A DNA stretch of 64,000 nt from Spirochaetes bacterium GWB1_60_80 (lineage in GTDB: Bacteria; Spirochaetota; Spirochaetia; Treponematales; UBA12059): the NCBI GenBank assembly GCA_001829185.1, contig MIAR01000024.1, forward strand, positions 1 to 64,000, in the 5' to 3' direction. A program made the position numbers and the translations under genes. The notes beneath the pieces were generated by a model. The model ran no database searches. It was given only the letters and a program-made list of their open reading frames with translations, and was not told the origin of the DNA. Position 1 is the stretch's first letter. The number at the start of each line of letters is the position of its first letter. Of this stretch, positions 1,028 through 38,371 are shown piece by piece.

Positions 1028-2740
1028 ATGAAAATCCGTGTCAAATTCGCTCTGCCGATTATCGCCCTCAGCCTGCTGGTGGCTGGCGGCTTGGCAGTCA
1101 TCTATAGCGCCCTGGAGTTTCGCCTCAAGCAAGCGGACCGCCTCTATGATGCCGTCCAAGCGGTCATGAGCGATGTGGACGGCCTGAACCTGGCCATTCG
1201 GGACGGCATCTTGACCCGGTCGGATCGGTATGCGATTACGGCCGCCCGCTTGTCCCTGGAAATTCTGGATCAGGTTATGGGGCTTGAAGATTTGGCGCCG
1301 GCCCTGCGCGCCGATTTTTTGGCGGCCTACCTGCCATTTTATACTACCCTGGTATCCCTCAACTCCCTGTACAACGAAAACCGCCTGGAGGAGGGAGCTG
1401 CCCGACTGGCCGAACTGGGTGACCAACAGGCCCTCATGCGCCTCATCACCGACCAGATGCAGGCCTACGCCTCGGCCGCCTACGATAGCGCTACCAACAC
1501 CGTCCGCGGCAGCCTGGTGGCCCTGATGCTTTCCCTGCTTGTTTTTAGCCTGTTTCTATTGCTGGTACTAATACCGCGCTGGCTGGTCAAACCAATCCGC
1601 GCCGTGGTGGCTGGTTTTGATCCCTTCGCCAGCGGCGATTTGACGTTCCGGATTGAGCTGAAAACGCGCGATGAGCTCGGGCACTTGACCACCATGTTCA
1701 ATCAAGCGGTGCAGGCCCTCAAGACGCTGCTGCTCAACATCCGGGCCACTACCCGCGAGCTGTCCGGTACCGGCCAGGAATTGTCGACCAACATGACCGA
1801 AACGGCCGCGGCTATCCGCCAGATCAACTCCCGCATCGGGGCGGTCCAAACCCAGGCCATCGACCAATCGGCCAGCGTCACCCAAACCACGGCTACCATG
1901 AAACAGATCACCGGCCTGATTGAGCGCCTGTTTTCCATGATCGAGCGACAATCGATAAACGTGACGCAATCTTCCGCGGCCATCGAGCAGATGATGGCCA
2001 ATATCGCCTCGGTGACCGAGACCTTGAAGCATAATTCGAGCGAGATCGAGAGCCTGCTGCAGGCTTCGCAGAGCGGACGGGCTGGCCTGGAGACGGTGGC
2101 GGCCGACATCGCCAAGATCGCCAAGGAATCGGAAGGCATCCTGGAAATCAGCGAGCTGATTCAGAACGTGGCCAGCCAGACCAATCTGCTGTCCATGAAC
2201 GCGGCCATCGAGGCCGCCCACGCCGGCGAAGCCGGCCGCGGCTTTGCCGTGGTGGCCGACGAAATCCGCAAACTGGCGGAATCCTCCGGCGATCAGGCAA
2301 AAACGGTTTCTCAAGTATTGGGCAGCATCAAGCGTTCGGTTGATCAGATCACGATTTCTACCGCTCAGGTACTAACCAAGTTTGAATCGGTCGAACAAGC
2401 CGTCATAACGGTCTCGGAGCAGGAGTTGTCCATCCGTCAGGCCATGGAAGAGCAGACTTCGGGCAGCCAGGAAGTCCTGGCGGCTATTGGTCAGTTGAAT
2501 CAGCTTACCCAGGAAATAAAGAGCGGTTCGCAGGAAATGCTCGGCGGCAGCCAGGAAGTACTGCAGGAAAGCCTCAATCTGAGCGAATTGACCAACCGCA
2601 TCAGCGACAACATGACGGAAATGGCCGCCGGCTCCAGCCAGATCGAGGCGGCCATCGCCAATGTCGACTCCATCGCCCTGCGGACGCGCGATGGCATCAG
2701 GCAAGTGGAGACGGAGCTGGACCAATTCGTGCTGGAGTAG
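1028..2740 (+). CDS. Methyl-accepting chemotaxis protein
   Basis: A 570-residue inner-membrane chemoreceptor. The first membrane helix lies near residues 7-27, an extracytoplasmic sensor domain spans about 28-160, and a second helix ([20 protein letters not shown]) lies near 165-186. A HAMP domain and a long coiled-coil signalling domain follow. The conserved hairpin tip, with [20 protein letters not shown] and [15 protein letters not shown], is near residues 380-422 and marks the CheA/CheW-binding region. AGGAAGG lies upstream of the ATG. It is spaced 12 bp from the PstS-like gene, suggesting co-transcription and possible binding-protein-mediated sensing. No unusual residues are seen in the tip. 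Confidence 0.95.
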
Positions 2741-2922
2741 GCGCCGGGCCGCGCCGCCGCCTGGTTCAGGCCGGATAGTCAGCGCAGGCGTTCGCGGCCA
2801 GCCTCCCTGCCGTTCGGGTCGGGCCGGGACTTGCCCGGCCTTTGCGGCACAGTCTATACTGCCGCGGCCGCCAGGCGCTGGCCTGCAGCCACCCGATACC
2901 GCCGAACCCAGACAGGAGCCCC

Positions 2923-4926
2923 ATGCAGCTTGATTACGAACAGGAACTGAACCCGGAACAGTATGACGCCGTCACCGCCATCGAGGGGCCGTTGCTGATC
3001 ATCGCCGGCGCCGGTTCCGGCAAGACCCGCGTCATCACCTTTCGGGCGGCCTACATGCTGCAGAAAGGCATCCCGCAGTCCAGCATCCTGGCCCTGACCT
3101 TCACCAACAAGGCGGCCAAGGAAATGGCCGAGCGGGTGCGTACAGTCACCGGCAAGAAGCTGCCCAACCTGACCGTTTCCACCTTCCACGCCTTCGGCGT
3201 CAAGATCCTGCGCAAGGAAATCCACCGCCTGGGCTGGCGCGAGAATTACTCGATCTACGACGAGGTGGACCGCAACCAGCTCATCAAGGACTGCGCCCGC
3301 GAGACCGGCTTCAAGCTGGAGACCTTCGACGTCAACAAGGCCGGCATGCTGTTCTCCGACGTCAAGACCGAGCGCAAGAACTGGGAAGGCGTCGACGACG
3401 GTTACGAAAAAGTCTTCCACGAGTACCAGGCGGCGCTCAAGGCCTACAACGCCGTCGACTTCGACGACCTGATCGGCCTACCGGTGCGCATTTTTCAGGC
3501 CTTTCCCGAGGTGCGCGAGGAATACCGCGACCACTACCGCTATATCATGATCGACGAGTTCCAGGACACTTCGCTGCAGCAGTACCAGCTGATGCGGCTC
3601 CTGGCGCGCGACAACGTCTGCGTGGTGGGCGACGACGACCAATCGATCTACTCCTGGCGTGGCGCTAATTATCAAAATATAATCAATTTCGAGAAGGACT
3701 GGCCGCGGCGCAAGGAGGTGACGCTGTACCGCAACTACCGCTCCACCACCACCATCCTCGACGCCGCCAACAGCATCATCGCCAACAACACCAACCGCAA
3801 GCTCAAGGACCTGCGCTCGCCCAACGAGGGCGGCGCCCAGATCGAGCTGTTGTCCCCGGCCAACGAGCTGGACGAGGGCGAGCAGATCGCCACCATCATC
3901 CGCGAGATCAAGCTCAAGGACAAGCTGCGCTACGACCAGTTCGGCGTGCTGATCCGCACCAACAACCTGACGCGCTACCTGGAGGAGGCCTTCCTGGGCG
4001 CCAACATTCCCTACAAGGTCACCGGCGGCACCAGCTTCTTCGGCCGCAAGGAAATCAAGGACATCATCTCCTACCTGCGCGTCATCGCCAACCCCGAGGA
4101 CGACGTCAACTTGATCCGCATCGTCAACGTGCCGCGGCGCGGCATCGGCCGGCGTTCGGTGGAGCTGCTGACCGACGTCGCCAAGAGCCGCGGCTGCTCG
4201 CTGAGAGCGGCCATGGAGGCGGTGCGCGGCGACCCGTTCATCGAATTCCCCGACCGCACCCGCCAGGACGTCGAATCGTTCCTGGGGCTGCTGGAAATGT
4301 TCCGCGAAGAGCTGCTGCACCGGCGCAACCTGGCGGTCAAGGTGCGCAAGCTGGTCGACGCCATCGACTACTGGGGCTACCTCGTAAACGACAACCAGCA
4401 TAACGACAAGGCCGCCAAGTGGAAGTTCCTGAACGTCGAGAGCCTGATCAAGGGCATCGACACCTGGGAGAAGGACCCCGACAACCTCGATCCCAGCCTC
4501 TTTGCCTGGCTGAACCGCATCTCGCTTATTACCCGTGACGACCAGGAAGAAGACGACACCGGTAAGGTTAACCTGATGACTATCCACGCCGCCAAGGGTC
4601 TGGAGTTCGACGTGGTCTTCATCGCCGGCTGCGAGGATGGCATCATCCCGCACGCCCGGGCCCTAGAGGAGGGCGACGGCAACGTCGAGGAAGAGCGCCG
4701 GCTGTTTTACGTGGCTGTCACCCGGGCCCGCCAGCGCCTGTTGATTTCGGTTTGTCAACAGCGGCGGCGCAACGCCATGCCGGTCAACTGCGTGCCCTCG
4801 CCTTTTCTGGCCGAGATACCGGAACACCTGACCTGCTGGCGCGAGCCGGAGTCGGAGCTGTCGGAGGACGAGCAGGCGGCCGTCTGGCAGGACGTGCGTA
4901 AGATGTTCGGCAAGGACGCGGAGTAA
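2923..4926 (+). CDS. UvrD/PcrA-type ATP-dependent DNA helicase
   Basis: A 667-residue superfamily 1A 3'-5' DNA helicase acting in repair and replication restart. Motifs in order are the Walker A GAGSGKT, LTFTNKAAKEMAERV, DEFQDTSLQQY (Walker B), VGDDDQSIYSWRGA, NYRS, LMTIHAAKGLEFDVVF and RLFYVAVTRARQRL. The reading frame stays open upstream to 2842, but ATG 2923 has AGGAG at a proper distance and gives the family's usual LNPEQYDAV start, so the upstream 27 codons are rejected. The C-terminus is somewhat shorter than in E. coli UvrD. It stands alone: nothing for 180 bp upstream, and the methyltransferase gene converges 4 bp downstream. Confidence 0.95.
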   Translation: MQLDYEQELNPEQYDAVTAIEGPLLIIAGAGSGKTRVITFRAAYMLQKGIPQSSILALTFTNKAAKEMAERVRTVTGKKLPNLTVSTFHAFGVKILRKEIHRLGWRENYSIYDEVDRNQLIKDCARETGFKLETFDVNKAGMLFSDVKTERKNWEGVDDGYEKVFHEYQAALKAYNAVDFDDLIGLPVRIFQAFPEVREEYRDHYRYIMIDEFQDTSLQQYQLMRLLARDNVCVVGDDDQSIYSWRGANYQNIINFEKDWPRRKEVTLYRNYRSTTTILDAANSIIANNTNRKLKDLRSPNEGGAQIELLSPANELDEGEQIATIIREIKLKDKLRYDQFGVLIRTNNLTRYLEEAFLGANIPYKVTGGTSFFGRKEIKDIISYLRVIANPEDDVNLIRIVNVPRRGIGRRSVELLTDVAKSRGCSLRAAMEAVRGDPFIEFPDRTRQDVESFLGLLEMFREELLHRRNLAVKVRKLVDAIDYWGYLVNDNQHNDKAAKWKFLNVESLIKGIDTWEKDPDNLDPSLFAWLNRISLITRDDQEEDDTGKVNLMTIHAAKGLEFDVVFIAGCEDGIIPHARALEEGDGNVEEERRLFYVAVTRARQRLLISVCQQRRRNAMPVNCVPSPFLAEIPEHLTCWREPESELSEDEQAAVWQDVRKMFGKDAE

Positions 4927-5881: not shown

Positions 5882-8832
5882 AGGAATTTGTGCTCGCGGG
5901 CCGCCTCGAGCAGGCGGTGGTTCCAGAGATTCTTTTCCATGAAGATGGCGCGGCTGGCGCGTTCTTCGATCTTGCCGGCCCGCTGCTGCAGGTAATTGAA
6001 GGCCCGCGACAGGATGGTCTGCTTATCTACCGGCTCGGCCTGCAGCTCGTCTTCCAGCACATAGCAATACATGCAGACGGTGGCATAGGCCGGGTTGTTC
6101 TTGAAACGCGCCTCGCGGGTTAAGGCGGCCAGTTCCACGGCCTTGCTGGCGTCAACCTCGGCCAGGCCGCTGGCCAATAGCCGCAGCGCCAGGTGCATGT
6201 CGTTGATCAGGCTGTTGGCTTGGTCGAAGCAAATGGCGCGGCCTTCCATCTCCTGGAAGAGGCTGCGCCGGTCGCGGCTGTCCGGCGGCAGGAAGGGACG
6301 GGGCTGGATTTCCGGCGGTTCTCGTAACCGGGCGGCGGCCTGGGCCGGTTGGTGGAGCAGAATCTCCAGCTCGGCCCGGAACAGCCGGGCCTCGGCGTCG
6401 TCGGCATGGAGCTCCAGTAGGTCACTGGCCGCGGCTGTCTGGCCGGCGTAGCCCAGGCAGCGCGCCTGCCAGACTGCGGCTCGCTGGCCGGCGTCGGCCT
6501 GTTGGTTGGCGGCGGCGAATTCGGCCAGGGCGGCGAAATGCCTGGCCGCCTCGTCGTATAGGCCCAGCTCCATGTCGAGGCGGGCGGCCATTAAGCCCAG
6601 GTCGACCATCAGGTCCGGCCGGCAGAGGCGTCGGGCCAAGGCGCGGGCCTCGGCCGCCAGCTTGGTCGCCCGGACCAGCGAACCGCTCATGAATTCGACC
6701 AAGGCGCGTAGGTAGAGGGTCTGGCACAGCTCGTGGCGGTCGCCCCCGGCCTCGGCGATCTCGGCGGCGTTGGTCAGGTAGTCGCCGGCGTCGGCGTATT
6801 TTTCGACCGACAGCGCAGCCAGGCCCATCATGCGCTGGATGCGCGAGCCGAGCTTTGGCGGGGTGGAGCGGTCCAGCAGCAGTAAGGCCTCGCGGGTTCG
6901 TTTGGCCATGGCCTCGATATTGCCCTCGGCGTAGGCGAATTCCGCCTGCATTAGCGCAAAGCGGCAGCGCGAGTGTTTGCCGTCCAGCAAGTCGTTGGCC
7001 CGCACCAAGGCGGCGGACTGCCGCTTCCGGTCAACCTCACGGGCGGCAACATAAAAATTACACAGCTCGCGGTTGGCCGCCGACAGGCTGCGGGTGTCCG
7101 GCGCCGCCGGGCTATCCGGCTGCTGGGCGCTATTCATGATGGCGTCGTAGACGAAGCGGATGGCGTCCACGCCATCGCCGGTACGATGTAACAGCGGCAA
7201 GGTGGCCGCGATCTTGCCTCGGTTGAAAAGGTCGATCAGGAAAGCGGTATACAGGCTGTCCAGTTGGCTGGCGCCAGCCGCCAGTTTGCGGCCGATGCCG
7301 CTTGGCAGGCTGAAAGGTTCAAGGATGGCCATGGCGTCGAGCGGGTCGAGGATGGCCGCTTGGCAGAGCAGCCGCTCGATCAATTCCGCGCCGGCCGGCT
7401 GGAGCCCGGCCTTGCCCAGGTAGGCGAGGAAATTGTCGCGTTCCAGGCTGCCGTCGGCCAGCTGCCGGGCGTGGAGGTAGAGACCGGCCTCGGCCGGCAG
7501 CCAGTCCAGGATGGCTTCGGCGCCACAGTGATCGGCCGACCCCGCCTGGTCGACCAGGGCCAGAGCGCGCGGCTCTATGATGGCGGCCAGTTCCGTCGGC
7601 AACGCTGCCATCAAGTCGGGTACCAAGGGTCCAAGGTTTTCCTCGGGGCCGGCGACGATGCACAAGGCGGCGTTATCCAGGGCATGCCACTCGGCCGGCA
7701 GCGGCCAGCGGCTAATGGCCAGGTACTTTTCGGTACTGGTTGGGTCGGCCAGCCGTTCCAAGATCAGCTGCCTGGCTTGCGCCGAAAAGTATTCCGGCCG
7801 GTCGCAGATCAGCCAGGCTGTGCCAAGAGTACTGGCTGTGCCAAGAGTACTGGCTGTGCCAAGAGTACTGGCTGTGCCAAGAGTACTGGCTGTGCCAAGA
7901 GTACTGGCTGTGCCAAGAGTACTGGCTGTGCCAAGAGTACTGGCTGTGCCGGTAGCCGCCGCCCGCGTCAGCAAATCCAAAACCAGGTTGATGAAACTGG
8001 CGCAGGCCAGGGCCAGCGCGGCCGGTAGTTCGACCAGCTCGAGGGCCGTCCGGGCATAATCGAAGGTCGGCCGCAGGCTGTCCAGCTGTTCCTGTTCGGC
8101 CGCGTCAGCCACCAGCCTGGCCTGGGCCAGCTTTTCTTCGGTCAGGCAATTGGTAAAAGGCCCAAAGGCGCGCCGGTTGCCCGGCGGGCAACGCAGGTTG
8201 AGTACCAGGCGGTGGCCGCCTGGATTGTCGGCAGCCTCCGTGGCAAAGACTGGCTCCAGCGCCAGCACCGAACGGCTGGCGCCATCGGCCTTGACATAGA
8301 CCATGCGGCAGGGACGGACCTTGTCGCCCTGCAAGAAGTTGCCGAGGGCTCGCAATAGGTTAGGTCGTTGCACCAGCCGGGCCAGGCCGGTATCGGCCAA
8401 CAGCGGGCTGTACAGGCAATGGGTTTCCTGATTGTCGCGGCGGCCCAGGCTAAAGTAGCCGCGGAAGGCGGCCTGGCAGCGGGCGCTGAAATGCAGGCGG
8501 ATGGCATGGCGACCGGACAGCTCGCGGTAGCGCCAGGCGCCGTTGTCGCTCTCGACCTCGCTCCCGTCAGCCAGGCTGATGATTGCCCCGCGCAGACTGG
8601 CGCGGTGTTCCAGCAGCGCCTCATGGCAACGGCGGACGGCTTCGGCACTTTGCAGCCGGGCAAAGGCCGAATCGTCGGGGAAGAGCAGGACCAGTTGGCG
8701 GCTACCAACGTCGACCTGCCCACCCAGCTGTTCGCCGGCCTGCCTGAGTTGCTGGAGCAGGCTAGTGACGGCTTCCCGGCCGCAGCGCTGAAACTGATGC
8801 AGGTAGTAGATATGAATACTGCAAATAGTCAT
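5878..8832 (-). CDS. Large TPR-repeat protein of unknown function
   Basis: A 984-residue protein I do not recognise. The first 280 residues look globular and faintly recall regulatory or cyclase-like modules (RQLVLLFPDDSAFARLQ). I see no catalytic motif. Residues about 295-340 are a perfect hexapeptide repeat (TASTLG) encoded by identical 18-bp units. The second half, from about residue 560, is helical and rich in alanine with TPR-like pairs such as EALLLLDRSTPPKLGSR and ALVEFMSGSLVRATKLAAEA, so it probably scaffolds protein contacts. No signal peptide or membrane helix is seen. It is translationally coupled to the RlmM-like methyltransferase. Confidence 0.75.
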   Translation of the reverse strand: MTICSIHIYYLHQFQRCGREAVTSLLQQLRQAGEQLGGQVDVGSRQLVLLFPDDSAFARLQSAEAVRRCHEALLEHRASLRGAIISLADGSEVESDNGAWRYRELSGRHAIRLHFSARCQAAFRGYFSLGRRDNQETHCLYSPLLADTGLARLVQRPNLLRALGNFLQGDKVRPCRMVYVKADGASRSVLALEPVFATEAADNPGGHRLVLNLRCPPGNRRAFGPFTNCLTEEKLAQARLVADAAEQEQLDSLRPTFDYARTALELVELPAALALACASFINLVLDLLTRAAATGTASTLGTASTLGTASTLGTASTLGTASTLGTASTLGTASTLGTAWLICDRPEYFSAQARQLILERLADPTSTEKYLAISRWPLPAEWHALDNAALCIVAGPEENLGPLVPDLMAALPTELAAIIEPRALALVDQAGSADHCGAEAILDWLPAEAGLYLHARQLADGSLERDNFLAYLGKAGLQPAGAELIERLLCQAAILDPLDAMAILEPFSLPSGIGRKLAAGASQLDSLYTAFLIDLFNRGKIAATLPLLHRTGDGVDAIRFVYDAIMNSAQQPDSPAAPDTRSLSAANRELCNFYVAAREVDRKRQSAALVRANDLLDGKHSRCRFALMQAEFAYAEGNIEAMAKRTREALLLLDRSTPPKLGSRIQRMMGLAALSVEKYADAGDYLTNAAEIAEAGGDRHELCQTLYLRALVEFMSGSLVRATKLAAEARALARRLCRPDLMVDLGLMAARLDMELGLYDEAARHFAALAEFAAANQQADAGQRAAVWQARCLGYAGQTAAASDLLELHADDAEARLFRAELEILLHQPAQAAARLREPPEIQPRPFLPPDSRDRRSLFQEMEGRAICFDQANSLINDMHLALRLLASGLAEVDASKAVELAALTREARFKNNPAYATVCMYCYVLEDELQAEPVDKQTILSRAFNYLQQRAGKIEERASRAIFMEKNLWNHRLLEAAREHKFL
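7816..7951. repeat. Perfect 18-bp tandem repeat inside a gene
   Basis: Seven identical copies of GGCTGTGCCAAGAGTACT run from 7816 to 7941, followed by a partial eighth copy. The unit is a multiple of three, so copy-number change would alter protein length by six residues without a frameshift. All units are identical, pointing to recent expansion by slippage or recombination. Confidence 0.95.
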
Positions 8833-19202: not shown

Positions 19203-19442
19203 CTAGGAGTCTGTCGGGCTTTGGAACGCGAAGAATGATTGTCAGGAAAAAATGGGAAACAAATCTGCAACATCCAGAATCTCGGGGAATTTTTCACGCT
19301 TTTTGGCCGATCTCAACGCCCCACGGCGTAAAATCGGCTCGTCAATCGGGCCATACAGGAAGTATGACCCTCAATCCTCACCAATTTTCCACTCGTGGCT
19401 CGCTTTCGCTGGGCCAAAATCCAAAGCCCGACAGACTCCTAG
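19203..19442. mobile_element. MITE A, 240 bp with perfect 22-bp inverted ends
   Basis: Ends are CTAGGAGTCTGTCGGGCTTTGG (19203-19224, counting the CTAG) and its exact reverse complement at 19421-19442. No transposase is encoded. CTAG at both ends fits the 4-bp YTAR target duplication of IS5-type elements, although it also belongs to the palindrome. The interior shows no coding sequence. It has interrupted a hairpin repeat. Confidence 0.85.
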
Positions 19443-19575
19443 CAGGGTGTTGAAAAACGCGGATGCGGCTTTTCAACACTTCAAAAGCCGGTACAATTAC
19501 GCAGCATAGCGCAAGCTATGCGAGGAATTGTTAAGGTTGTTGAGAAAGCAACCGGCTTTTTCAACAACCTGCTAG
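19439..19575. mobile_element. MITE B copy 1, 137 bp
   Basis: A non-coding, hairpin-forming element bounded by CTAGCAGGGTGTTGAAAAA and the inverted TTTTTCAACAACCTGCTAG, with a central CATAGCGCAAGCTATG dyad. The same 137-bp sequence recurs inverted at 37256-37392. It shares its left CTAG with MITE A, and its right CTAG supplies the stop codon of the GH5 gene. Confidence 0.9.
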
Positions 19576-26237: not shown

Positions 26238-26366
26238 TGGGCTAATCGCTTGGTCGGCGAAGCGGCGGCTGGCCTGAATGGCTTGCGTAATTTCGTGAAA
26301 CGATTACACTTGTAAGAGCGGGCGGCGGGCAGGCCGCTGGTTAGGTCCGGAAAACGGGAGGCTGAC

Positions 26367-27089
26367 ATGGAAATTCACAACTTGATGGAAGATATGGTCC
26401 GGTCCACGGTCGACGAGCTGTTTGATGCCGACAAGCCTGGCCAGCCATCCTGGTGCACCTGTCAGCAGTGCCGCATGGACGTGGCCTGTTACGTGCTTAA
26501 CCGCATGAAGCCGGAATACGTGGTGTCCAGCCGCGGCGTCGCCCATGCCGAGCAGGACTATAATGAAAAGCTGCAGCGCTTGGCTGACGTGGTGTCAACG
26601 GTCCGGGAAGGCTGGGCGCGGATCAACGCTACCCGCCGGCCCCACTTCGACCACACCAGCGTCGCCCCGGTTATCAGTCTGCCTGATGGCCCGGTCTACA
26701 ATATTCCGCCCATTATGGGGCGGCTCTTCGACGGCGCTACCTTCGCCCCGATCGACAATCTGGCCGTCTCGCTGCTTGACGAGAAGGGGCAGTTGGTGCC
26801 CATGATGGATGGTAACTGGCAGAATCCTTGCCCTCTGGTCAAGAATACCGGTGGTACCTTTATTTTCTGGACCTATCCGGTGCTGGCCACCTCGGAGCGA
26901 CCGGAACGCCTGTTCACGTTCCGGGTATCGGCCCAGGCTGAAGGCTACGATGAGTTGTCGCATTTCGTGGAGTTGCGTTTGGCGGTAGAGAACAAGGCCC
27001 AAGATCAGTTTTCGATGCAGGCGGTATACAAGTTACCCGACATGTACCTGTTCCCGCCCACCAAGGATGAAGACTTGGAGTCTGAGTAA
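26367..27089 (+). CDS. ComFB-family protein
   Basis: A 240-residue protein whose first 100 residues match the late competence protein ComFB family: EIHNLMEDMVRSTVDELF, then CTCQQCRMDVACYVLNRMKP and KPEYVVSSRG. The cysteine pairs suggest zinc binding, and some ComFB proteins bind cyclic di-nucleotides. The C-terminal 140 residues (PPIMGRLFDGATFAPIDNLA to MYLFPPTKDED) form a beta-rich extension that looks like a carboxypeptidase-regulatory or Ig-like fold and is not part of ComFB. AACGGGAGG lies before the ATG. Confidence 0.85.
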   Translation: MEIHNLMEDMVRSTVDELFDADKPGQPSWCTCQQCRMDVACYVLNRMKPEYVVSSRGVAHAEQDYNEKLQRLADVVSTVREGWARINATRRPHFDHTSVAPVISLPDGPVYNIPPIMGRLFDGATFAPIDNLAVSLLDEKGQLVPMMDGNWQNPCPLVKNTGGTFIFWTYPVLATSERPERLFTFRVSAQAEGYDELSHFVELRLAVENKAQDQFSMQAVYKLPDMYLFPPTKDEDLESE

Positions 27090-33983: not shown

Positions 33984-34012
33984 TTGACAATCTATGACTA
34001 CAGTTGTAGGCT
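33984..34012 (+). promoter_or_regulatory. Promoter with BlaI-type operator between -35 and -10
   Basis: TTGACA (33984-33989) and, 17 bp on, TAGGCT (34007-34012) form a plausible promoter. Between them lies TACAGTTGTA (33999-34008), an exact match to the TACA-NN-TGTA core bound by BlaI/MecI/CopY repressors; the full dyad is CTACAGTTGTAG. It stands 30 bp before a BlaI-type repressor gene, so autoregulation is likely. Confidence 0.7.
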
Positions 34013-34038
34013 TAAATTGAAACGAAAGCGGGAGACCT

Positions 34039-34971
34039 ATGGAAGACACGAATCACATTACGGAGGCGGAGTGGCAGGTCATGCGGGCGGTCTGGTCGAC
34101 GGTACCAGCCACCTCGTCGGCCATCATCCAGGACCTGGCCGCCGGCACGGGCTGGGAGCCGACTACCGTCAAGACCCTGCTGGCCCGGCTGGTCAAGAAG
34201 GGAGCTGTGCGCTTCGTGTCGCAAGGCCGGACCTACTTGTACTTTTCGGTGCTGTCCGAGGAGGCCTGCATCCGGCGCGAGATGCGCCTGTTTGCCGGCA
34301 AGATCTACGGCGGCGCCATCCACCTGGCCAGCCCGCACTTCGATTTCAAGGGGACGGACGACCCGGCCTTCATGGGCTTGCTGGCGGCGGCGCTGGAAGC
34401 CGGCCTGGCCTCCGTGACCGCGGATTTTCAATACAAGTTGACGGAACGGCTGGTGGTTTATGTCCATCCCAGCCGGCAACGCCTGCAATCCGCCCTGGGT
34501 GTTCTGGACGGCCCGGACTGGCTGCGAGCCGGTACCATCTGGGGCATGATCCATCTGGCGCCGCGGGACTGCTTCGACGTGCCGCCGCCGGACAAGGCAG
34601 CGCTGCATGTTCTGACCCAACTGCTGGTTGGCCTGGTCAACCCGGCCGTACCCTACTGGCTTTCCCAGGCCTTGGCGGCTTGGGAAAGTCAGTGGCTGGA
34701 TCAGGCCCGCGTTAGCCGGACTATTCAGGCCCGGTCGGCCGGTTTCAGGCTGGCGGACATGCTGGAAGTGGGGGCCGTCTACCGCCAGTTCCGGGATGCC
34801 GGCGGTTATGAGCTGGCTTTTACGGTGGCGGAATTCGTGGTGGCCGAATTCGGACGCGACAGCCTGGCCACACTGGTGCGCTCACCGAGCGATTTTTCCG
34901 GCGTTTTCGGTTTTTCGGAGGCGGAATTCTGGACGCGCTGGGACGCTTTCCTGGCCAGGCGCTATGCCTGA
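34039..34971 (+). CDS. BlaI-type repressor fused to a degenerate metalloprotease-like domain
   Basis: A 310-residue protein. Residues 1-80 are a BlaI/MecI/CopY winged helix (ITEAEWQVMRAVWS, TTVKTLLARLVKKGAV). BlaI itself is about 125 residues and dimerises through its C-terminus. Here about 220 further residues resemble a peptidase MA-like gluzincin: HVLTQLLVGL (190-199) sits where HExxH is expected and VPYWLSQALAAWES where WLxEGLA is expected. The first histidine stays, but the catalytic glutamate and second histidine are lost, so it is probably inactive and may sense rather than cut. The promoter carries a BlaI-type operator. An S41 peptidase-like lipoprotein follows 60 bp later. The metalloprotease assignment is by eye. 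Confidence 0.75.
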   Translation: MEDTNHITEAEWQVMRAVWSTVPATSSAIIQDLAAGTGWEPTTVKTLLARLVKKGAVRFVSQGRTYLYFSVLSEEACIRREMRLFAGKIYGGAIHLASPHFDFKGTDDPAFMGLLAAALEAGLASVTADFQYKLTERLVVYVHPSRQRLQSALGVLDGPDWLRAGTIWGMIHLAPRDCFDVPPPDKAALHVLTQLLVGLVNPAVPYWLSQALAAWESQWLDQARVSRTIQARSAGFRLADMLEVGAVYRQFRDAGGYELAFTVAEFVVAEFGRDSLATLVRSPSDFSGVFGFSEAEFWTRWDAFLARRYA

Positions 34972-35031: not shown

Positions 35032-36465
35032 ATGATGAACTGCCTGACAATTTTCCGTGGTTTTCGTCTTTGCCAACGTCAAGTCTGGCGGTTTACCCTG
35101 GCTTGGCTACTGGGCAGTCTGCTGCTGTCGTGCAGTACCAGCCGCCCGACTGCCGACCTCGCGCCGGTCGCCGATATCGCCGCCGAGGCAACGCCAGATC
35201 CATTCAGCCGCGGCTACACTCTGGCCGAGCTGCAGGCTGATTTCAAGGAGCTGCAAAGCCGGATCGAGCTGACCCATCCCAAGCTGTATGCTGATCGTAC
35301 GGCCGTCGCGGCGCTGCTGGAAACCAATTACGGCCGACTGGCCGAGGGCATGACGGAACTGGATTTGTTGCGCTTGTTGGCTCCGATAGTGTCGCGGCTG
35401 AACTGCGGCCATACCGCGCTGTCGCTGTCCGCGGCCTACCAGGAACGACTGGCCAGCGTTGGCCGCTATTTCCCGCTGCTGCTGCGCTTCCTGGGTGGCA
35501 AGGCCTACATCTCCGGCAATAGCCTGTACCCGGCTATCCCGCTCGGGGCGGAGCTGTTGTCCATCAATGACCAGAGCATGGCCGACATCGTGGCCGTCCT
35601 GTTCGCTTCAATGAGCGCGGACGGGTTCAACCAGACCGGCAAATTCGCGCAGCTCAATGGCTGGTTTCGCTACAAATACCAGAACATCATCGATGACCAA
35701 GGTGACTATGACATCACCTGGCGGACTGATGCCGCTGGCCCCATCCAGTCGGCCCACCTGGCCGGCGCCGGCAACGCCACCATTGCCCAGGCGCACCAGG
35801 CTTTCTTCGACAGCTGGAACGCCAGCCATGACCGGCCTTTCGAAGCCGACTTCCAGGCCGGTTACGCGCGCTTGATCATGCGTTCCTTCTATCCGGAAGG
35901 CAACCACAGCTTGCCCCGCTACAAAAGCTTCATTGATGATTTTTTTACTCGCGTCCAAGCCGAGGCCGTCGGCACGGTCATCCTGGACGTCCGGGGCAAT
36001 AGCGGCGGTGATCCTTATGTTACCGCCCACTTGTTCAGTTTCCTGGCCGAGACTGCCCAGCCCTACTTCGCCGACTCGGCACCGGGCTATTACCCCAGCC
36101 TGAAGCGGACGGTGCCGTTGGCCGCCAAGCGCTTTGGCGGCCGCTTGCTGGTGCTGATGGACGGCGCCAGCTTCTCGTCCACCGGCCACCTGCTGGCCCT
36201 GCTGCGCTCCCAGTCGGTCGGCAGCTTCATCGGCGAGGAATCGGGCGGGTCCTTCGTCTGCACCGACGGCTCCCAGGATTACCGCCTGTGCCATAGCGGC
36301 CTGCAATTCCGCAGCTCCACCATTGTTTGGGAAGTAGCCACCGCCGGTCTGGAGCCGGGCCGCGGCATTATGCCCGACCATCCGGTTCAGCCCAGCATCG
36401 CCGACTGGCTGGCCGGCCGCGACACCGTTCTGGACTACGCCGTCAGGCTGGCCGGGCAACCGTAA
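35032..36465 (+). CDS. S41 family peptidase-like lipoprotein
   Basis: A 477-residue exported protein of the S41 (tail-specific/tricorn-like) group. A lipobox LLSC with C34 follows the hydrophobic FTLAWLLGSLLLSC. TLAELQADFKELQSRIELTHP begins the family's N-terminal domain. The catalytic domain contains GTVILDVRGNSGGDP, DGASFSSTGHLLAL with the nucleophile-site serine, and SFIGEESGGSF. I do not see a paired lysine of the CtpA type, as is usual in this subgroup. ATG 35032 with AGGAG six bases upstream is chosen over GTG 34993. It probably shares the operator of the preceding repressor gene. Confidence 0.85.
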   Translation: MMNCLTIFRGFRLCQRQVWRFTLAWLLGSLLLSCSTSRPTADLAPVADIAAEATPDPFSRGYTLAELQADFKELQSRIELTHPKLYADRTAVAALLETNYGRLAEGMTELDLLRLLAPIVSRLNCGHTALSLSAAYQERLASVGRYFPLLLRFLGGKAYISGNSLYPAIPLGAELLSINDQSMADIVAVLFASMSADGFNQTGKFAQLNGWFRYKYQNIIDDQGDYDITWRTDAAGPIQSAHLAGAGNATIAQAHQAFFDSWNASHDRPFEADFQAGYARLIMRSFYPEGNHSLPRYKSFIDDFFTRVQAEAVGTVILDVRGNSGGDPYVTAHLFSFLAETAQPYFADSAPGYYPSLKRTVPLAAKRFGGRLLVLMDGASFSSTGHLLALLRSQSVGSFIGEESGGSFVCTDGSQDYRLCHSGLQFRSSTIVWEVATAGLEPGRGIMPDHPVQPSIADWLAGRDTVLDYAVRLAGQP

Positions 36466-36478
36466 AGGAAATAAAAAA

Positions 36479-37219
36479 ATGAACTTGAACCATTCCAGCA
36501 GGCTTGGCTTTGCCATGGCCAGCGGCCTTTGCCTGGCGCTGGCCGCGGCGGCCTGCGCCGCCCAGCGGACCGGTTCCGGCCGCCAGGCCAACCCCGTCCC
36601 GGAGGCGGTCGTCGACGTGGACGGGACAAGCAATACAACGGTCAGGATAGGCGACCAGGTCTGGATGGCCGAAAACCTGCGTGTTACCCGTTACCGCAAC
36701 GGCGAGGCCATCCCTGTGGTGGCCGAGGATGGGGCGTGGGCCAATCTGGCCAGCGGCGCCTGCTGCACGGCCGATAACACGGCCGACCCGGCGGCGATTG
36801 CCGCCTATGGCCGCCTGTACAACTGGTATGCCGCCAACGACAGCCGCGGGCTGGCGCCGGAGGGGTGGCATATCCCGAGCGTCGACGAATGGCAGGAGCT
36901 GGTGGACTGCCTGGGTGGCAGTGCCGTCGCCGGCGGCCACTTGAAGGCCGCCGGGATCGCCCACTGGCCGAGCCCCAATGTCACCGCGACGGACTCAAGC
37001 GGCTTCGCGGCCCTGCCTGGCGGTGTCCGCGATGGCAATGGCGGCCCCTTCTTCAACGTTGGCCGCTTGGCCTACTTTGGCCTGACGGCGGAGGCTGCCG
37101 GCGTCTGGTATGTCTGGTATGTCTGCCTGGGCTATGAAAATGGTGAATTTCTTGTCACCAGTGACGAGTACCCGACGGATGGCTTTTCCATCCGCTGCGT
37201 CAAGGATGATGATTTGTAA
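36479..37219 (+). CDS. Fibrobacter major paralogous-domain lipoprotein
   Basis: A 246-residue secreted protein with the domain first noted as a major paralogous family in Fibrobacter succinogenes (TIGR02145). Features are VRIGDQVWMAENLRVTRY, YGRLYNWYAAND, LAPEGWHIPSVDEWQEL and SGFAALPGGVRD. The signal segment LCLALAAAACAA suggests lipid anchoring. Function is unknown; members are surface or periplasmic. AAAGGA lies before the ATG, 13 bp after the peptidase gene, so the three genes from 34.0 kb may form one operon. Confidence 0.85.
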   Translation: MNLNHSSRLGFAMASGLCLALAAAACAAQRTGSGRQANPVPEAVVDVDGTSNTTVRIGDQVWMAENLRVTRYRNGEAIPVVAEDGAWANLASGACCTADNTADPAAIAAYGRLYNWYAANDSRGLAPEGWHIPSVDEWQELVDCLGGSAVAGGHLKAAGIAHWPSPNVTATDSSGFAALPGGVRDGNGGPFFNVGRLAYFGLTAEAAGVWYVWYVCLGYENGEFLVTSDEYPTDGFSIRCVKDDDL

Positions 37220-37255: not shown

Positions 37256-37392
37256 CTAGCAGGTTGTTGAAAAAGCCGGTTGCTTTCTCAACAACCTTAA
37301 CAATTCCTCGCATAGCTTGCGCTATGCTGCGTAATTGTACCGGCTTTTGAAGTGTTGAAAAGCCGCATCCGCGTTTTTCAACACCCTGCTAG
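37256..37392. mobile_element. MITE B copy 2, 137 bp, inverted
   Basis: Reverse complement of 19439-19575, bounded by CTAG on each side. It lies between the paralogous-domain lipoprotein gene and the beta-propeller gene, ending 31 bp before the latter's ATG, so it now forms much of that gene's upstream region. It contains a large imperfect hairpin and no ORF. Confidence 0.92.
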
Positions 37393-37423
37393 GTTTGGCT
37401 GAACCGATTTTCCGGAGGGAAAG

Positions 37424-38371
37424 ATGAAAAAGCTGATGGCTGCGATGTTGGGCCTGATGGTGGCGCTGGCTTCGGCCAGCCTGGCTTGTACCGGGCAGGC
37501 CGAAGCCGCCGACCGGATGGCAGCGCCGGCGGAAGGTCAGGCCACTGGCGCGGTCGACGCGCCGGTCCGGCAGCTGGACGGCCAGCTGGCCTACGCCTCC
37601 GATGTGGACGGCGACTTCGAGATCTGGCTCCAGGCGCTGGATGGCAGCCCGCCGCGCCAGCTGACCGACCATCCGGCCATGGACCACTCGCCGGCCTGGT
37701 CGCCGGACGGGCAGTGGCTGGCCTTCGTGTCCAATCGCGATGGCAACGAGGAAATCTACCGTCTGGCCGTCGACGGCAGCGGCCTACAGCGCCTGACGTT
37801 CACGACGCAGGCGGCCGAAAGCTTTCCGGCCTGGTCGTCGGATGGGTTGACCATCAGCTTCGATTCCGACCGCGGCGGCGATTGGGACATCTACGCCATG
37901 GACGCCGACGGCGCGGCGGTCCGCCGCCTGACCAACCATCCGGCCGAGGACTGGATCAGCCACTGGTCACCGGACGGGCAGTGCCTGGCCTTCGAGTCGC
38001 GACGGGACGGCAACTACGAGATTTATGTGATGCGGGCCGACGGCAGCCAGGTCCGCCGCCTGACGGACAATCCGGGCGTGGACAGCGCGCCCAAGTGGTC
38101 GCCGGATGGCAGCCGGCTGGCCTTCTTCAGCCAGCGTGATGGCCGCATGGCGCTGTGTTTCATGCAGCCGGATGGCAGCGGCGTCCAGTTCCTGGCCAGC
38201 GGCGCCGAGGACTATAGTTTTCCAGCCTGGTCATCGGACGGCCAGTGGCTGGCCTTTACGGCCGGCGATGACCACGCCTCGCGGCTCCAGATTGTGGCGG
38301 CCGCAGGTGGTCAAGCCTGGACGCTGCTTGACAATGGCGCTCGTTGCTGGGCGCCGGCCTGGCGGCCCTGA
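37424..38371 (+). CDS. TolB/PD40-type beta-propeller lipoprotein
   Basis: A 315-residue exported protein. A hydrophobic leader with lipobox-like LASASLAC precedes a six-bladed propeller of PD40/WD40-like repeats, each with a WSPDG or WSSDG turn (for example AWSPDGQWLAFVSNRDGNEE) followed by IY-D-DG segments. It resembles the C-terminal domain of TolB. No pal or tolA genes are near, so a scaffold role at the envelope is inferred. GGAGGG precedes the ATG, directly after the MITE. Confidence 0.88.
   Translation: MKKLMAAMLGLMVALASASLACTGQAEAADRMAAPAEGQATGAVDAPVRQLDGQLAYASDVDGDFEIWLQALDGSPPRQLTDHPAMDHSPAWSPDGQWLAFVSNRDGNEEIYRLAVDGSGLQRLTFTTQAAESFPAWSSDGLTISFDSDRGGDWDIYAMDADGAAVRRLTNHPAEDWISHWSPDGQCLAFESRRDGNYEIYVMRADGSQVRRLTDNPGVDSAPKWSPDGSRLAFFSQRDGRMALCFMQPDGSGVQFLASGAEDYSFPAWSSDGQWLAFTAGDDHASRLQIVAAAGGQAWTLLDNGARCWAPAWRP

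Follow-up and report, generated by a model that had tools for sequence, protein, structure and literature searches.

A BlaI-type winged helix joined to a gluzincin-like domain that has probably lost its active site: a candidate self-contained repressor in uncultured spirochaetes

The 64,000-nucleotide stretch of spirochaete DNA analysed here (the window) contains an open reading frame in which a BlaI-type winged helix is continued by a domain related to metallopeptidases, with a predicted operator over its own promoter and genes for envelope lipoproteins directly behind it. From sequence comparison, it is close to certain that the C-terminal domain is a gluzincin descendant with catalysis lost, and repression of its own operon through the operator is very likely. 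The exchanged C-terminal part, together with a unique and conserved operator in front of its own envelope-lipoprotein operon, suggests a self-contained sensor. Tentatively, this would be a BlaI repressor which captured a metallopeptidase, whose active site was lost and whose old cleft would now be the inducer pocket. The promoter and the fusion gene show the following features, all on the + strand:

33984..33989, +, -35 box TTGACA, identical in the other two intact loci (L010 and L011, below) and at the same distance to the palindrome
33998..34009, +, predicted operator CTACAGTTGTAG (palindrome CTACAnnTGTAG); the 16-base form, 33996-34011, fits RNYKACANNTGTMRNY
34007..34012, +, -10 box TAGGCT, 17 bp past the -35 box, placed by sequence comparison and missed by a generic promoter scan
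34030..34034, +, ribosome binding site GGGAG upstream of the fusion ATG, from sequence
34039-34971, +, fusion open reading frame of 310 residues: BlaI winged helix and predicted dead gluzincin domain
34039..34263, +, residues 1-75, BlaI/MecI-type winged helix (PF03965; MecI/BlaI structures by sequence)
34264..34335, +, residues 76-99, linker and what is left of the first dimerisation helix of BlaI (to YGG); the PF03965 match stops here
34336..34968, +, residues 100-310, gluzincin-like domain (stand-alone homologs; hhalign)
34606..34620, +, HVLTQ (residues 190-194) in place of HExxH, aligned without gaps to HEYVH
34657..34677, +, WLSQALA (residues 207-213) in place of WLxEGLA, aligned without gaps to the WLKEGLA of stand-alone proteins

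Only three relatives of the fusion turned up when 85,000 species genomes were scanned with two peptide patterns, and searching 394 genomes of the order with a profile gave the identical set; with this coverage (two patterns, about 400 genomes of the order), distant fusions may have been overlooked in other phyla. The relatives are locus L010 in the Spirochaetes MAG RA.bin94 (genome G011), locus L011 in the MAG MM_PW_MetaG.mb.28 (G001), which belongs to the same genus as the source, and a decayed copy at locus L012 in a Spirochaetaceae MAG (G068). Intact fusions thus number three, all from MAGs of uncultured spirochaetes. Locus L012 was considered as a fusion with its active site kept and rejected, as the recognition helix and the middle are missing; the better reading of its positions 7902-8630 is a decayed fusion gene with a stand-alone HExxH gene, likewise decayed, directly behind it. 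No relative of the fusion was found on viral contigs, and the plasmid matches listed all concern the winged helix and are of the ordinary BlaI/CopY type. BlaI-type genes are present in 14 of 393 genomes of the phylum; the clear non-fusion ones are stand-alone and of about 130-150 residues, and a few of the matches fall in longer read-through frames with stops.

The fusion gene is divergent to a DNA polymerase I-like gene. In a Pfam scan, Penicillinase_R (PF03965) matches residues 7-94 with 82.3 bits (E 4.2e-23; cut-off 22.6), and a sequence search also matches them to the solved MecI 1okr (E 6.5e-13) and to solved BlaI repressors, which bears out the BlaI/MecI winged helix that a preliminary description had assigned to this 310-residue protein. 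Of the 115 profile positions, 1-88 are matched: the protein has the winged helix and, up to KIYGG, the first dimerisation helix, but not the remainder of the dimerisation domain. The protein therefore lacks the complete three-helix C-terminal dimerisation domain of BlaI, MecI and CopY and shows a different domain after position 88, which, as read from the profile match, places the fusion point within the BlaI dimerisation domain.

A profile of the C-terminal domain finds stand-alone spirochaete proteins in G015 (E 3.0e-15) and in the congener G001 (E 9.7e-11), with weaker matches in G056 (E 1.7e-5) and G019 (E 6.5e-4). When the fusion domain and these proteins are compared profile to profile (hhalign), the probability is 98.3 and the E 1.2e-14 over 179 columns. 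The stand-alone homologs show an N-terminal membrane anchor or lipobox and keep HEYVH or HEYAH together with WLKEGLA- or WLWE-type motifs; in contrast to them, the fusion shows no N-terminal signal peptide or anchor. Where the stand-alone proteins have any Pfam match, the best is Peptidase_MA_2 (PF13485), with 26.1 and 22.7 bits against a cut-off of 32.4 (E 8.5e-6 for the G015 protein, under the curated cut-off), and a profile built from them jointly hits lugdulysin, a metalloprotease of known structure (7bb8), with E 3e-5. The ancestor of the fusion domain is, by this homology, an extracytoplasmic gluzincin. The fusion C-terminal part alone has no Pfam match and no DUF955/M78 match, a PHROGs scan is likewise empty, and a PDB profile search with it gives a chance match only. 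AlphaFold models are of low confidence (pLDDT 47 for the full protein from three sequences, 50 for the C-terminal domain from four), and structure searches with them retrieve winged helices over residues 4-82 but no meaningful match for the remainder.

HVLTQ and WLSQALA align without gaps to the HEYVH and WLKEGLA of the homologs, which together with the profile matches supports both gluzincin descent and the loss of the active site. The two relatives show HVLAQ and HVLAL at the HExxH position, and the distal motif is WLxQA in all three fusions, with Q210 invariant. Of the four active-site residues, the Glu, the second His and the distal Glu are lost in every intact fusion, and H190 alone is retained. 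The preliminary description had claimed a gluzincin-like C-terminal part, here of about 211 residues, in which these two replacements probably abolish catalysis; homology to the HExxH stand-alone proteins supports the first claim, and the alignment in three of three fusions the second. Simple Nei-Gojobori counts between the three species, with dS partly high, put dN/dS at 0.16-0.33 over residues 100-310, at 0.09-0.14 over residues 185-220, which hold the two former active-site helices, and at 0.10-0.21 over the winged helix. The values over the dead domain indicate that it is maintained under purifying selection.

The palindrome CTACAnnTGTAG occurs once in the 3.6-Mb genome, against seven sites for the reversed control pattern. 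Its counterpart is CTACAGATGTAG in L010 and CTACGGTTGTAG, with one mismatch, in L011; in both, the operator lies 8 bp after TTGACA and the -10 box is TAGTCT at 17 bp. The 16-base sequence RNYKACANNTGTMRNY is the refined form of the CopY-family operator consensus (PMC7253601). An exact TACA-NN-TGTA operator had been described as lying between the -35 and -10 boxes: the exact motif is there, but when the spacer is taken as 17 bp the palindrome runs into the first bases of the -10 box and is not wholly between the two. The 10-base motif TACAnnTGTA is not enriched genome-wide (10 sites against 19 for the control), so that the regulator appears dedicated to its own operon, and a wider regulon was rejected on the same ground. 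The other TACAnnTGTA sites of the window (24796 and 26305) fail the 16-base consensus. The second of these, TACACTTGTA at 26305-26314, is in an intergenic stretch before an open reading frame at 26367 which may encode a ComFB-type protein; the site is probably due to chance, because the 10-base motif is not enriched and the 16-base consensus is not matched.

Downstream of the fusion gene, the operon contains three lipoprotein genes:

35032..36465, +, S41-type peptidase lipoprotein, lipobox LLLSC (PF03572, E 7.6e-10), with the His (NCGH) and Ser (FSS) of a presumed Ser-His dyad
36479..37219, +, FISUMP (Fib_succ_major) lipoprotein (PF09603, E 8.5e-39); the L010 ortholog is 62% identical
37424..38371, +, PD40 beta-propeller lipoprotein (PF07676); the G001 ortholog is 64% identical and directly follows the S41 gene

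The S41 peptidase-like lipoprotein that had been noted behind the fusion is confirmed by this PF03572 match, and it is the next gene in all three genomes. The L010 ortholog (2073-3491) is 58% identical; that of G001, 67% identical, starts at the end of contig C395 and continues on contig C142. In L010 the S41 gene is followed by a WD40 propeller and a FISUMP gene, and no FISUMP gene was found on the G001 contig examined. Across the aligned S41 relatives, the xCGH His and the FS Ser are conserved. A Ser-His dyad has been reported for the S41 protein NSR (PMC4828448), and these two residues are presumed to be the positions assigned to it; the S41 lipoprotein of the operon is likely active. A 138-bp repeat with terminal inverted repeats of about 20 bp (CTAGCAGG[TG]TGTTGAAAAA) is found in the window at 19438-19575 and at 37256-37393, between the FISUMP and propeller genes. 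At least 40 copies in the source genome are 97-100% identical (222 first-look candidates, 40 scored), none was found in the congener G001 and G011 shows one diverged copy (76%); it is a recently expanded MITE-like element. Near the fusion, L010 (5507-6040, - strand) and L011 (2748-3317, - strand) each encode a small membrane protein without Pfam match, the two being related; none was found in the window.

In the textbook picture of BlaI/MecI control, a separate sensor protease cuts the repressor and so brings about induction. The source genome contains a single BlaI gene and no M56 match over the Pfam cut-off (best 18.4 bits against 31). The same is true of G001 and of G068; the two fusion genomes without M56 are about 95% complete, and G011 is only 57% complete. 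Elsewhere in the phylum, a stand-alone BlaI gene is directly beside an M56 gene in G009, G023, G444 and G668, and beside a sub-cut-off M56 match in G457. This agrees with the preliminary description as far as it sets the fusion apart from BlaR/MecR systems, where metalloprotease sensor and repressor are two proteins: no BlaR/MecR-type partner is recognisable here.

In the proposed mechanism, the fusion gene would encode a soluble one-component autoregulatory repressor. Its winged helix would bind CTACAnnTGTAG over the spacer and the -10 box of its own promoter and shut off the operon formed by the fusion, the S41 lipoprotein and the further envelope lipoproteins. The dead domain, which replaces most of the BlaI dimerisation domain, most likely would hold the dimer together, and its old substrate cleft would serve to bind the signal, which might be a peptide akin to the substrate of the S41 protein; repression would then be relieved by binding and not by cleavage. 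In this model we infer the repression itself, the role of the new domain in dimerisation, the binding of a ligand and the nature of the signal. Of the single readings of the dead domain, the preferred one, at about even odds, gives it both dimerisation and binding in a switch that works without cleavage.

A rather unlikely alternative makes the dead domain an oligomerisation scaffold only, with induction coming from elsewhere, for example from an unrelated protease that cleaves the repressor or turns it over. It would fit the position of the fusion point within the dimerisation domain of BlaI (the Pfam match ends at 88 of 115) and the relief of canonical BlaI by proteolysis (PMC7593790), but G000 (the source genome), G001 and G068 show no M56 over cut-off, and 211 residues with constrained cleft helices (dN/dS 0.09-0.14) exceed the needs of a dimer clamp. 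Less probable still is a dead domain that binds a partner protein, such as an unexported lipoprotein precursor or the peptidase of the operon, and so reports export or envelope load; the tight linkage to the lipoprotein genes in three of three genomes and the recurrent adjoining of gluzincin and S41 families without BlaI speak for it, but such linkage would be just as likely with the operon as a mere target. It is improbable that H190, together with H143, H172 and C178, forms a re-arranged site for metal binding or catalysis, which would make the protein a metal sensor or an unusual peptidase: all four residues are invariant in the three fusions, and H143 and H172 are also retained in the decayed G068 copy, but the Glu that acts as general base is gone, as are two ligands, and invariance among three sequences is cheap.

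Compared with known systems, the fusion shares with BlaI/MecI (and BlaR1/MecR1) the winged helix, a TACAnnTGTA-type operator over its own promoter and a predicted autoregulated operon; it differs in the 211-residue gluzincin-like domain in place of the second part of the dimerisation domain, in a genome without M56 over cut-off and in an operon in which no beta-lactamase or PBP gene is seen. Among the plasmid matches listed, CopY/TcrY come closest to the winged helix (38% identity), and the operator fits the refined CopY consensus, but the fusion shows no C-terminal CxC motifs and the operon no copper exporter; after the winged helix only C77 and C178 are invariant Cys in the fusions, and TIGR02698 is below cut-off. 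In IrrE/DdrO a gluzincin and a repressor also cooperate, but they are two proteins and an active M78 protease cuts the repressor; ImmA/ImmR likewise consists of an M78 protease and a separate repressor, which the protease cuts. The stand-alone HExxH proteins (L005, L009, L007 and L050) are homologous over the whole domain length but are exported or membrane-anchored, with the active site intact and no HTH. NSR, the nisin resistance protein, is a membrane-linked S41 peptidase with a Ser-His dyad, as presumed for the S41 protein of the operon, but shows no close sequence match to it.

In canonical BlaI systems derepression occurs by proteolysis (PMC7593790). MtPrpR/RamB join an HTH to an IrrE-like domain without the conserved HExxH, and this domain takes part in binding CoA esters as ligands (PMC6765138). 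MtPrpR is a precedent for a dead metallopeptidase-like domain in a ligand sensor behind an HTH; the HTH with a metallopeptidase-like domain lacking the HExxH residues is shared, but MtPrpR/RamB have an XRE-type HTH in place of BlaI, another peptidase-like family (DUF955) and additional GAF-like and Fe-S regions. A literature search found no paper on BlaI-metallopeptidase fusions, so the earlier statement that no system of this form is described holds for BlaI as far as searched, but not for the general plan, known from MtPrpR/RamB (PMC6765138). If the proposed mechanism is true, a two-protein proteolytic switch is convertible to a one-protein binding switch, in parallel to the independent MtPrpR/RamB case, and binding replaces the cleavage step which defines BlaI/MecI control.

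The gluzincin and S41 families also adjoin without BlaI. Contig 29 of G001 shows, in this order, a LuxR-type regulator, a HExxH stand-alone protein, a lipoprotein and an S41 fragment that belongs to the S41 family of the operon (40% identical), and the same LuxR family precedes a HExxH protein in G015 and an S41 protein in G020. This arrangement favours, suggestively only, a shared substrate or signal. In other members of the family, a LuxR-type regulator with a probable membrane part recurs beside a HExxH gluzincin, a protein of the same S41 family or both, at L048 (1699-4853), L049 (4368-6201) and L073 (4830-7559).
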